Shown here piece after piece: positions 6,042 to 9,488 of a stretch of DNA of 64,000 nt (within the stretch, counting starts at the first letter, position 1; the number at the start of each line of letters is the position of its first letter). The DNA comes from a virus, in the IMG/VR virus record IMGVR_UViG_3300027743_000002, positions 1 to 64,000 of that record; one strand, 5' to 3'. A program made the translations under genes and the position numbers. The notes under the pieces are model-generated. The model was given only the letters and a program-made list of their open reading frames with translations, searched no databases and was not told the origin of the DNA.

Positions 6042-6317
6042 ATGCAGACCTCACCGCTAAAAAACGGCGATAAACTTCCCGATCATCCTAGCGACACCAC
6101 CGCTTTACAAATAACCAAGTACGGACGAGTTTTTGACGCAACCGATGGGCTAGAGTTACTGCCTAATCTCCACCGAACTGAGATCGGAATGTTACGGGGT
6201 GGAGAAAGAGGCGGTCTATCTCATTTGTACAGATTTCACATCGAATCCGGCCACATTTTTCACACACGAGCGGCGGCTGTAGTTGAGGTAGAATGTGAAA
6301 GTATTGACTCTGAATAG
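6042..6317 (+). CDS. small hypothetical protein
   Basis: A 91-residue protein whose ATG directly follows the preceding stop (TAAATG), implying translational coupling. It is hydrophilic with no recognised domain. It is the last gene before the pentanucleotide-periodic cassette. Confidence 0.45.
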   Translation: MQTSPLKNGDKLPDHPSDTTALQITKYGRVFDATDGLELLPNLHRTEIGMLRGGERGGLSHLYRFHIESGHIFHTRAAAVVEVECESIDSE

Positions 6318-6338
6318 CGAATAGAGTAGATTGCTCCC

Positions 6339-6430
6339 GCCGACCAAGATTGAATGGCGTGGGCTTTGTTTTTAGCCTTAACAGATTCCAGATACTTAGA
6401 CCAAAATCGTCCGCGCTTGTCTTGGTCGGC
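6339..6430. repeat. 11-bp perfect inverted repeat
   Basis: GCCGACCAAGA at 6339-6349 is the exact reverse complement of TCTTGGTCGGC at 6420-6430, with 70 bases between. A shorter GGCT/AGCC pair lies inside. An 81-codon minus-strand frame (6260-6505) covers it, but its start lacks a good ribosome site. I treat the stretch as probably non-coding: a structured leader or the remnant of an insertion edge. Confidence 0.35.
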
Positions 6431-6471
6431 AGGCTCTAACGAAGGTCGGGTGTCTGGAATTTGTTTTTCAG

Positions 6472-6536
6472 GGAGTGGCGTGGTGCGCTGGTTTAGGGTT
6501 GGCATAGGTCAGTTCCGGCTTGGTATGGTGCGCTAT
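6472..6536 (+). repeat. upstream pentanucleotide-periodic array
   Basis: Starting at 6472, a G recurs every five bases through 6532: 12 of 13 positions in phase, the exception being 6492. Most units read NGGNN (for example TGGCG, TGGTG, AGGTC, TGGTA). The units are not identical, so this is a positional pattern rather than a simple tandem repeat. It ends about 10 bases before the AAGGAG ribosome site of the next gene, so it would lie in that gene's mRNA leader. Confidence 0.75.
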
Positions 6537-6556
6537 TCCTCTAAGGAGAATCTGTT

Positions 6557-7192
6557 ATGGCTACAGCAAAAGCAAAACTAGAAGCATTGAGTCCGGTGTC
6601 AAACGATGCCGCAGAAACGATTTCATTTGAGGAACCGTATATCGTGACGGTTCAGATTGAAGGCACTGCGCCGATTCTTTTCCATCGGTGGTCTTGTGAA
6701 GACGTGGAAGCCAAGGCCAACGCAAAGAAGAACTCCAAAGCTAAGAAAACCGACAATGTGGAGTCCTACATCTATCGCAATGAGTTGAATCAAATCTGTT
6801 TGCCAGGTGAGTACGTGCGGCAGACAATTATTCATGCCGCGAAGTTCAAGCAAGACCCGCGTTCACCTCGTAAATCGGCAATGGACTTGTTCAAGGCGTC
6901 GATTGTGGCGTTGACCGAACTCGCACCGTTGAATGGTGGTACAGAAACGTGGGATTACATTGACCAACGACGAGTAGTGATTCAGCGGGCAGCTATCACG
7001 CGAATGCGGCCCGCGTTTGCGAAAGGATGGACAGCAGAGATGGATTTCTCGATTCTCTGTCCTGAGTATGTTGATCCACATTTGTTTAATGAGGTGTTGG
7101 CTCTATCTGGAAAGTTGATCGGCACAGCAGATGGTCGCCCTAGTTATGGACGATTTCAAGTGAACAAGTGCTCTGTAGTTGGGCTTGCTTAG
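6557..7192 (+). CDS. conserved phage protein of unknown function, RAMP-like features
   Basis: A 211-residue protein with a strong ribosome site (AAGGAG). After a disordered N-terminus come a hydrophobic strand ending in GTAPILFHRW (about 36-45), a Lys/Ala-rich basic loop (51-65), LPGEYVRQTI (82-91), an Arg-rich segment near 138-151, and a glycine-containing C-terminal block RPSYGRFQV (194-202). From memory, proteins with this motif order recur as hypothetical genes in other phage genomes. The strand-PL-turn opening, the 'PGxxxR' helix and the final 'GRFxV' strand recall the RAMP (Cas5/Cas7) fold, but that comparison is by eye. The gene is flanked on both sides by DNA with a G every fifth base, suggesting a protein that acts on those sequences. 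Confidence 0.6.
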   Translation: MATAKAKLEALSPVSNDAAETISFEEPYIVTVQIEGTAPILFHRWSCEDVEAKANAKKNSKAKKTDNVESYIYRNELNQICLPGEYVRQTIIHAAKFKQDPRSPRKSAMDLFKASIVALTELAPLNGGTETWDYIDQRRVVIQRAAITRMRPAFAKGWTAEMDFSILCPEYVDPHLFNEVLALSGKLIGTADGRPSYGRFQVNKCSVVGLA

Positions 7193-7380
7193 GTTATGGC
7201 TAATTCAGCCACGGTCGGCTAGGTATCGTTGTGTTGTGGTATGCCGAGCAGTGGTGAGGGTGGCTGCGGAATGTTCCGCTTTGGTCTTGCAACGGTGAGG
7301 CGTGGCCTTATAAGGAGAGTTGCGGTGAGGTATGGAACGGCGAGCTGAGCATGGTCGTGTTGGGGTTCGGTTTGGTCAGG
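7193..7380 (+). repeat. downstream pentanucleotide-periodic array
   Basis: Beginning at the base after the stop codon, G occurs at 7193 and every fifth base to 7283 (18 of 19; miss at 7203). The phase then shifts by one and G recurs from 7284 to 7379 (19 of 20; miss at 7309). Many units of the second half end in GG (TGCGG, TGAGG, TATGG, AACGG). No open frame of useful length covers it. The array is G-rich on the same strand as the gene and so would be part of its transcript. Confidence 0.8.
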
Positions 7381-7382
7381 TA

Positions 7383-7422
7383 AGAAAGAGCTAAGATAAG
7401 ATTCATTATCTTGGCTCTTTCT
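7383..7422 (+). terminator. 17-bp hairpin closing the periodic cassette
   Basis: AGAAAGAGCTAAGATAA pairs with TTATCTTGGCTCTTTCT around the loop GATTCA. One pair is T-G, which is a wobble only if the plus strand is transcribed. The tail is only moderately T-rich (TATTGTATA). It could end the transcript of the upstream gene. The TATACT at 7427-7432 might be the -10 of a terminase promoter. Confidence 0.6.
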
Positions 7423-7439
7423 ATTGTATACTCAACGAA

Positions 7440-9488
7440 ATGCCTAAGTTGACGAGGGAAGAAACTCAAACACTCTTTAGAGCTTTAGAGATTTCTTCTT
7501 TGTCCGAGATCGATGATGATTGGGTAGGCCAGTTTCTCTCCAAACTCAACGACCCTGTAAAGAAAGCCGCGTGGAATCAACTTCTCGGAATCATCGAAGA
7601 ATTCCGTCCTGAAGAATACAAACGCCTCAACAACTTCGCCAAGAACAACAAGGGAATGCTGCTGGAGTTCCAAGGATGGGAACGCTGGTTAAAGACTCTG
7701 GGAGCGCAGACCTTTACCCGCGACTTTGCCCCGATTCAAAAGAGATTTTGGGATTGGAATTGGCGAGCGTTGCTGAAGATTCGCAAGAACGTCCCGCTTG
7801 ATCCGAAAGAGATGGTTGGCTTTTTACCATGGTCCAGGGAGACGGGGAAAAGTTCAGTAACCGAGTGGGCGTGCATTGCCGAAGGAGCCTTGCTCAGAGG
7901 CGGGTATGTCATCTTCTACTCAGGCAAGCAATCGCAAGCAGAGGAACACGTTACTTCAATCCGTGACCGCATTGAATCTGAGCATGTCAGTGACCTTTAT
8001 CCGTGGTTAGGGAAGCCCAAGGTCGGCGCACACGGAAACAAGTTTGGATGGGGTAAAGAGTTCCTGATGACGAGTGGTGGTTGGGCCATCCGACCTGTTG
8101 GAGCTGATGTAGCGATACGCGGCGGTAAGACACTCAACCTTAGACCAACGCTGATCGTGGTAGACGACCTTGATGAACTCGGTGAGTCACCCGTTGTGGT
8201 CGAACACAAGGAACAGATTCTCACTCGCTCAATTCTGCCGATGGGGAATGACAAAACTCGTGTACTTGTCCCGCAGAATCCCATTCACGCGAACTCAGTA
8301 GTCAATCGAATGCTGACGGGCGTGTCACTTGCGTTGGCGATTAGAACCGTGTTCGGGGAGTTGAATGATGACGGTTCAATGTCCACTCGTCCTGTACCTG
8401 CGGTGCGCGACTTTGCTTACGAAGTCCGCCAAACCGATGAAGGCCCATTCTCTAAAATCACTCAAGGCGAAACGAACTGGCCTGGGATTACGATAGAAGG
8501 TTGGGAGCGAACTCTTAATCGTGTTGGGCCACTAGCATTCGAGAGCGAATACCAACACCGACTCGACGTAATGTTAGAGGAAAGGGTTCTTCCCGAATAC
8601 GATGACAGGGTGCTACGGACGAATCTGATTTCGTGGAGTCAATATGAAACAATGTATGGGACTCGTCGGATTCCGAGTGATTGGATTTGTGATGTTGGTT
8701 GCGATATTGGATATTCGGTAGGCCATCGAACTGCGTTTACATTTCTCACGCGAGCACCGCACGGCGCACCTCTAGCGGGAAGTATTTTTCGTTATCGAGG
8801 ATGTGTATTCACGGCTACCACGATTGGAGAAATGAGCACATCAGTAAAAGCCCGTCTATGGCCTGATGAAAACCTTCAGCGGGAATGGTTGAGTCACGAG
8901 AAGTTAGGCGAGCGGCTAGTGCTTAATCGAGAGCATGGTTGGCACTTCCAGACGTGCGAAAGTGCAAAAACCGCAGGAATTCCGCAATGGAGGCACTTTC
9001 TCAAGTCTGATAAGACGCAGCCGCATCCATTTCACCGAGATGAAAAAAGTGTAGATGGCTTGTGGAAGATTGGTCGTCCAGCATGGTTTGATGTTGTGGA
9101 CGATGACCAGTTCTTTCAACCCTATGATGACCGTGGATTAAAGGTGCATCGTGACCAAGCATTTAATTGGCGACTAAAGCCTGAGAAGCTGACGGAAAGC
9201 GGGCTGACTATTCAGCAGCCTATGAAGGCAGACGAAGATTCCTGCGACGCTACGAGAATGTGTACAGCCGCTCCAAATTTTGGGCCAACTATGCGAGGAA
9301 TGACCCAATATGAAAAGGTGCAAGCCATTATCCCGCAGGGCTATCATGTTAATGAGTTAGTCAAACGTGTTGACTTAGACCCTAACCAACAACACATGAC
9401 TGGTCAGATGGCAACCTTTTTAGCGAGAAAAACATTAGGCTTGGATAAGCCTAAATTAGTTGATCCATGGGGCCAGCCGATAAGGTAA
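7440..9488 (+). CDS. terL: terminase large subunit
   Basis: The 682-residue DNA-packaging motor. It docks on the portal, hydrolyses ATP to translocate DNA and cuts concatemers. The ATPase domain shows a Walker A variant SRETGKSS (132-139) and a Walker B strand LIVVDD followed by LDE (238-246). The C-terminal nuclease domain has a CDIG strand near residues 421-424, followed by GHRTAF, consistent with the RNase H-like fold of terminases. An N-terminal extension of about 125 residues precedes the motor. No small terminase subunit was recognised nearby. The gene follows directly on the periodic cassette and its hairpin. Confidence 0.92.
   Translation: MPKLTREETQTLFRALEISSLSEIDDDWVGQFLSKLNDPVKKAAWNQLLGIIEEFRPEEYKRLNNFAKNNKGMLLEFQGWERWLKTLGAQTFTRDFAPIQKRFWDWNWRALLKIRKNVPLDPKEMVGFLPWSRETGKSSVTEWACIAEGALLRGGYVIFYSGKQSQAEEHVTSIRDRIESEHVSDLYPWLGKPKVGAHGNKFGWGKEFLMTSGGWAIRPVGADVAIRGGKTLNLRPTLIVVDDLDELGESPVVVEHKEQILTRSILPMGNDKTRVLVPQNPIHANSVVNRMLTGVSLALAIRTVFGELNDDGSMSTRPVPAVRDFAYEVRQTDEGPFSKITQGETNWPGITIEGWERTLNRVGPLAFESEYQHRLDVMLEERVLPEYDDRVLRTNLISWSQYETMYGTRRIPSDWICDVGCDIGYSVGHRTAFTFLTRAPHGAPLAGSIFRYRGCVFTATTIGEMSTSVKARLWPDENLQREWLSHEKLGERLVLNREHGWHFQTCESAKTAGIPQWRHFLKSDKTQPHPFHRDEKSVDGLWKIGRPAWFDVVDDDQFFQPYDDRGLKVHRDQAFNWRLKPEKLTESGLTIQQPMKADEDSCDATRMCTAAPNFGPTMRGMTQYEKVQAIIPQGYHVNELVKRVDLDPNQQHMTGQMATFLARKTLGLDKPKLVDPWGQPIR

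Follow-up and report, generated by a model that had tools for sequence, protein, structure and literature searches.

What does a viral gene do that is flanked on both sides by DNA in which a G recurs at every fifth base? Such a gene lies in the 64,000-nucleotide stretch of DNA analysed here (“the window”), which belongs to a virus record of 74.7 kb. A preliminary description of the locus had known of no described system with this layout, a statement now overtaken by a preprint of April 2026 on VIPR, for Viral Interference Programmable Repeat (bioRxiv 2026.04.26.720920; PMC13142463). In phages, VIPR consists of a RAMP protein, Vipr, and of vrRNAs built from 9-16 YNNGG repeats with a structured tail. 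Vipr multimerises on the vrRNAs, the NN dinucleotides pair with double-stranded DNA with one target base skipped per unit, and the system represses competing phages, prophages and satellites (PMC13142463). The experiments of the preprint concern mainly two systems, that of SUSP1 and that of P. fulva, and a literature search found no further paper that treats VIPR, vrRNA and phage together.

We are highly confident that the locus in the window is a VIPR cassette, carried as accessory cargo in the phage head module, and that its arrays are guide-RNA genes. This reading rests on the RAMP fold of the gene product, its homology to SUSP1 Vipr, the reciprocal association of gene and arrays, the agreement of their strands, the hairpin that follows the right array and the fact that a relative has no such cassette. 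Counting against it are the search for targets, in which none was convincing, the missing vap neighbour, a second anchor G at only 57%, the want of a clear tail behind the left and middle arrays, and an NN composition that bears no signature of codon positions 1-2.

The five-base period and its arrays

Three runs carry the period: G is in phase at 12 of 13 five-base steps in positions 6472-6532, at 18 of 19 in 7193-7283 and at 19 of 20 in 7284-7379. These counts and coordinates reproduce exactly those of the preliminary description. The two right runs are the best 19-step and 20-step in-phase G runs of the 64 kb window; in 20 simulations of the window under a first-order Markov null, the maxima were 12-15 for 19 steps (18 observed) and 13-16 for 20 steps (19 observed). 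Corrected for local G content, P is 2.5e-7 and 1.1e-6 for the right runs. The left run is weak when taken alone (P = 6.6e-4, and 12/13 was also attained in one of the 20 simulations) and is established through homologues. A Fourier comparison with shuffled sequence, which the preliminary description had suggested as a check, gave period-5 spectral power of 3.15-3.9 for the three runs (shuffled mean 0.7, shuffled maxima 3.0-3.5). Among all 100-base windows, the highest and the second-highest period-5 power belong to the two on the right, and the signal around the enclosed gene is the top one in the whole window. The right array does begin directly behind the stop codon, as described; its phase can also be traced about 15 bases back into the 3' end of vipr.

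A period-5 Viterbi fit gives the repeat unit in the window as G-(G/C/T)-Y-N-N, in which position 1 is G in 94% of units, position 2 is G in 57%, position 3 is a pyrimidine in 82% and positions 4-5 are free. The earlier view that the period and not the sequence is conserved is supported. A GG-rich strand with short, even spacing could also point to G-quadruplex or other DNA-structure elements, the GG at each five bases forming two-tetrad quadruplexes. However, arrays of the window's clade often lack the second G (57%) and yet keep the exact five-base step and the pyrimidine, quadruplexes do not require a fixed loop length, and it would not be explained why the arrays accompany a RAMP gene, which makes this account of the arrays hardly credible.

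The features of the locus are collected in Table 1. If each guide holds 9-16 units, the left array and the last right array, with 12 and 13, fall in that range; the middle array, with about 22, contains the slip and has an uncertain boundary. Strong hairpins also follow the right array in two relatives (−18.3 kcal/mol in L002 and −19.3 kcal/mol in L003), with different stem sequences, and the left and middle arrays have a weak structured tail or none. Across all loci, strong folding (z < −2) was found in 27% of 50-nt post-array stretches, 19% of pre-array stretches and 5% of random ones; the excess of post-array over pre-array folding is not significant. Rfam searches returned nothing above the gathering score at 14 array-rich loci, and in the region of the window a lone weak match to mir-345, far under its gathering score.

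Table 1. Features of the putative VIPR cassette and of its borders, in window coordinates
Feature	Position	Strand	Remarks
Conserved phage ORF, left border	6042..6317	+	outside the cassette
VIPR cassette (vipr and flanking arrays)	6294..7439	+	edges approximate; missing as a block from a closely related phage
Left pentamer array, predicted vrRNA 1	6472..6532	+	12 units; L002 and L003 have arrays in this place too
NN series of predicted vrRNA 1	6472..6532	+	GT GT GC GG AG TG TA CA CC TT AT GC
Possible short 3' tail of vrRNA 1	6533..6552	+	TTCCTctaAGGAGAA; overlaps the vipr ribosome-binding region; weak, −2.4 kcal/mol
vipr	6557..7192	+	predicted 211-aa single-domain RAMP (Cas7-like) RNA-binding protein, from model and sequence; PHROG 4652
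Glycine-rich loop motif of Vipr	7121..7156	+	residues 189-200, GTADGRPSYGRF; variant of the family norm GVGDFRPTYGRF; from alignment columns
Right array part 1, predicted vrRNA 2	7193..7305	+	~22 units; phase slips by one base at 7283/7284; possibly two or more guides
Palindrome CCTTATAAGG within the right array	7306..7315	+	tentative guide boundary, from sequence; no strong fold
Right array part 2, predicted vrRNA 3	7316..7382	+	13 units
NN series of predicted vrRNA 3	7316..7382	+	GC GA AT AC GA GA TG GT GG TC TT CA AA
3' tail hairpin of the right array	7383..7422	+	17 bp, 6-nt loop, −24.4 kcal/mol
Terminase large subunit, right border	7440..9488	+	outside the cassette; PHROG 38, E 4.5e-16

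The enclosed gene and its neighbours

The AlphaFold2 model of the window's Vipr (pLDDT 91, pTM 0.83) was compared with the PDB by Foldseek, and the best 50 matches were all RAMP/Cas7-type CRISPR effector subunits (best E 4.8e-7), among them type VII Cas7, Csm (Csm3-type), Cmr and gRAMP/Cas7-11. A match among the viral structures of BFVD bears the title “Cas system-associated RAMP superfamily protein”. When the window protein alone was searched against PDB sequences, a single entry was returned, 36pp, “SUSP1 Vipr protein” (E 8.1e-6, residues 30-204), which the family profile matched at E 1.1e-40. PHROG 4652, annotated as of unknown function, contains SUSP1 Vipr (E 1.4e-96) as well as the window protein, and judging by these sequence matches it appears to be the Vipr family. 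The window protein matched no family in Pfam, NCBIfam or PADLOC. Homologues were found at 28 IMG/VR loci, on two GTDB contigs, in phage DSL-LC04 and in Pseudomonas phage Medea1. In a 98-sequence alignment of Vipr homologues, W158, G189 and G198 are invariant and the C-terminal motif reads GxGDFRPxxGRF; this glycine-rich loop is present in the window protein in variant form (Table 1).

The trp RNA-binding attenuation protein, TRAP, is a multimer that reads a short motif every five nucleotides. A protein ring or filament might act in the same way on its own mRNA, one subunit per five nucleotides, and so control its own expression. The arrays of the window do lie on the coding strand within the 5' and 3' untranslated regions of vipr, and TRAP sites have a similar 5-nt spacing. 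However, the fold is RAMP and not TRAP, the TRAP beta-ring being absent among the best 50 PDB fold matches; the free NN bases are hypervariable among near relatives; and in many loci (L008, L020, L043) there are several arrays, their tails repeated, that reach as far as hundreds of bases past the gene. In SUSP1, moreover, the arrays are separate guide RNAs of about 100 nt that target DNA and send the protein to DNA other than its own (PMC13142463). We consider autoregulation a very improbable explanation of the arrays; the main role of Vipr is unlikely to be self-regulation, which may be a side role. The preliminary description was thus partly right. A protein multimer or filament with one nucleic-acid contact per five nucleotides is still the best reading, with the product of the enclosed gene as the partner, and the period stands; action on its own mRNA or DNA is probably wrong, and this, with the supposed lack of a described system, is the part that did not hold.

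With respect to its neighbours, the cassette lacks the hallmarks of Class 1 CRISPR-Cas that were looked for, as there are no cas neighbours and no CRISPR repeats in it. An accessory gene, vap, is typical beside vipr and is not universal (PMC13142463). In the window, vipr has no vap beside it, its neighbours being array and terminase, and a search of the window for SUSP1 vap or for the Lys-rich candidate vap of L005 and L013 found no similarity.

Elsewhere in the family, a Lys/Ala/Pro-rich basic protein starts at or just past the vipr stop (L005, L013, L016, L021, L023, L027, L151). This protein, for example L013 2468-2902, has a conserved C-terminal domain and no match in PHROGs or NCBIfam, and is a candidate DNA-binding vap. 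In Pseudomonas phage Medea1 (L152 6557-7015), the neighbour of Vipr is 28% identical to SUSP1 vap1, so that Medea1 has the appearance of a type II VIPR phage, with a single array.

Association of gene and arrays, and the cassette as cargo

By the preliminary description, homologues that mostly lack periodic flanks would have spoken against its idea. The opposite was found: arrays of at least 40 nt (consensus GGYNN) are present at 30 of 30 homologous loci selected by the gene. The reverse scan of IMG/VR was blind to the gene and looked for ten consecutive GGYNN units, which yielded at least 120 stretches; a Vipr homologue was counted if E < 1e-5. Among the matches listed, 86 of 120 array-first loci hold a Vipr homologue, with a median gene-array distance of 21 nt. 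Array segments lie on the strand of the gene in 199 cases versus 7 on the opposite strand, and 3 of these 7 overlie arrays already found on the gene's strand. The loci without the gene (34/120 among the matches listed) comprise several microsatellites (L124, L131, L138 and L139 are plain cases), contig ends and some orphan arrays.

Lone short GGYNN arrays of about 65-80 nt, mid-contig and with no Vipr gene detected nearby, were seen in L042, L046, L050, L053, L070, L091 and L092; possibly these orphans are guides that borrow Vipr in trans. In L008 (3588-4169) and downstream in L009, multiple arrays are parted by a near-invariant tail of about 50 nt (GGGCCTTATTGCAAGGAATAGGGCGGCTAAGAACCGCCTTATGACGTGCAAT), and their guide units vary from copy to copy. 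Vipr and arrays also occur in contigs binned as bacterial, a Patescibacteria MAG contig (L029) and a Chlamydiia MAG contig (L030), where the copies are either proviruses or host-borne.

Gene and arrays are also absent together. In the window the cassette adjoins the terminase gene. A 72.5 kb relative, L282, has the gene order of the window, a terminase 78% identical and many neighbouring segments more than 90% identical in translation; there, window position ~6293 joins 7439/7440 directly (L282 3993 to 4001), so that the border ORF abuts the terminase and a block of about 1.15 kb (~6294-7439) is missing. Two further genomes, L284 and L286, are likewise without the cassette. Because the whole block is absent from L282, gene and arrays travel as one cassette, and from sequence comparison they behave as a single accessory cassette in the phage head module. 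Among the nearest Vipr relatives, L002 has vipr next to a terminase gene, L003 between tail genes and L004 near tail genes. The reciprocal association in more than 100 viral loci is thus joined by a clean empty site, which shows that gene and guides travel together.

Guides, anchor code and relation to known systems

If the cassette works as described in the preprint for SUSP1 and P. fulva, the flanking arrays would be transcribed as about three vrRNAs. Copies of Vipr would align on each guide at a spacing of five nucleotides and grip the anchor bases G-x-Y, while both free bases of a unit would face outward and pair with the DNA target, one base being skipped between dinucleotides; the ratio of one copy per unit and the skip rule are both taken over from the preprint. 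The complex would block transcription of its target, which in the known cases is a rival phage, a prophage or a satellite.

Exact 8-unit cores of the window guides, compared with IMG/VR under the 1-nt skip rule, gave 0, 1, 2 and 1 matches. None extends past its core, and so we attribute them to chance. The best self-target within the window pairs at 8 of 13 units, which is not convincing. Across all loci compared, skip 1 gave about 11 non-trivial matches of 8 units and other skips gave 3-5, which favours skip 1 too weakly to count and is confounded by codon structure; a single match of 10 units at a 6-base step (L002 guide, L084) is consistent with chance in view of how many comparisons were made. 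The NN composition fits codon positions 1-2 no better than it fits a uniform model. Since no target was found for the window guides, an action against rivals is carried over from SUSP1 and P. fulva.

The window belongs to a clade with L001, which is identical to it in sequence, L002, L003 and L004 (support 100/100). In this clade, position 2 of the unit is G in only 53-65% of units, versus 98% in SUSP1, while position 1 is G in 94-96%, versus 84%. Among 133 loci, fewer than 70% G at position 2 is found only in this clade (L001 included) and in one doubtful exception, L130. The relaxed base is G, C or T and rarely A. The same clade has a changed glycine loop, GTAD[G/N/W]RP versus GVGDFRP in the family. 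Thr190 is exclusive to the clade; two proteins with Ala191 and no Thr190 (L125, L080) have ordinary arrays, with position 2 G at.86 and.92.

There are at least two possibilities for the relaxed anchor. The locus may be decaying, its arrays losing anchors and no longer functional, and the relaxed second G, the lack of vap beside vipr and the empty target search would agree with this. Yet position 1 is kept above the level of SUSP1, the pattern is common to four distinct loci with intact proteins (79-88% identical), and the relaxed position avoids A and is therefore not in random decay; we regard loss of function as improbable. Alternatively, the clade may use a variant VIPR code, with one strict G per five bases, a second base that can be G, C or T, and a glycine loop changed to match. 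We put this forward tentatively: loop and code changed in a single evolutionary event, so the link between them is hypothetical.

A GGRNN scan, intended as a negative control, failed as such. Among the matches listed, 93 of 120 were low-complexity runs and 15 hold a Vipr homologue with GGA-anchored arrays; in the Vipr tree, these 15 loci are found on several branches. GGANN-flanked homologues were seen in L220, L175, L188, L192, L253, L191, L249, L169, L223, L264, L261 and L266, and successive guides in L169, L223 and L264 seem to be separated by the four bases GGCA. The arrays of the window are likewise of a related type and not strict GGY. Because the preprint allows “GGY/NN or a related consensus” (PMC13142463), we do not claim the variant or GGA types as new. 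If the variant code is real, the GGA arrays elsewhere would mean that the VIPR anchor code was rewritten several times alongside its reader protein. The loosened anchor and changed loop offer a testable link between protein motif and guide code, one that bears on the origin of guide-RNA reading by Cas7-type proteins.

Three known systems can be set beside the locus. Class 1 CRISPR Cas7 RAMPs (type VII Cas7, Csm3) have a fold in common with the window's Vipr (Foldseek E 4.8e-7, TM ~0.55), and their filament on a guide RNA is probably its mode as well; unlike them, the locus has a single small protein, lacks both cas genes and a CRISPR array, and shows a 5-nt instead of a 6-nt period and a gapped guide code. 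TRAP is comparable by analogy, as a multimer that reads at 5-nt steps, but its fold is unrelated to Vipr, it regulates its own operon and it has no variable guide bases. The closest system is VIPR of Escherichia phage SUSP1 (Vipr ALH47069, PDB 36pp), whose public record holds vipr, vap and four arrays in the layout of the window. Both are phage-borne and have a homologous single-domain RAMP protein of PHROG 4652, whose gene is flanked to the left and right by pentamer arrays with anchors and free NN, and a 3' tail structure, in the window behind the right array. They differ in that the Vipr sequences are only distantly similar (phmmer E 8e-6), SUSP1 has vap1 next to vipr and the window does not, the tail sequences are different, and the strictness of the two anchor positions is reversed (position 1 over position 2 in the window, 94% and 57%; position 2 over position 1 in SUSP1). 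The locus thus gives independent support for VIPR from a distant branch, beyond SUSP1 and P. fulva: the system itself is already described, and the window adds a genuine further member, possibly with a variant code.
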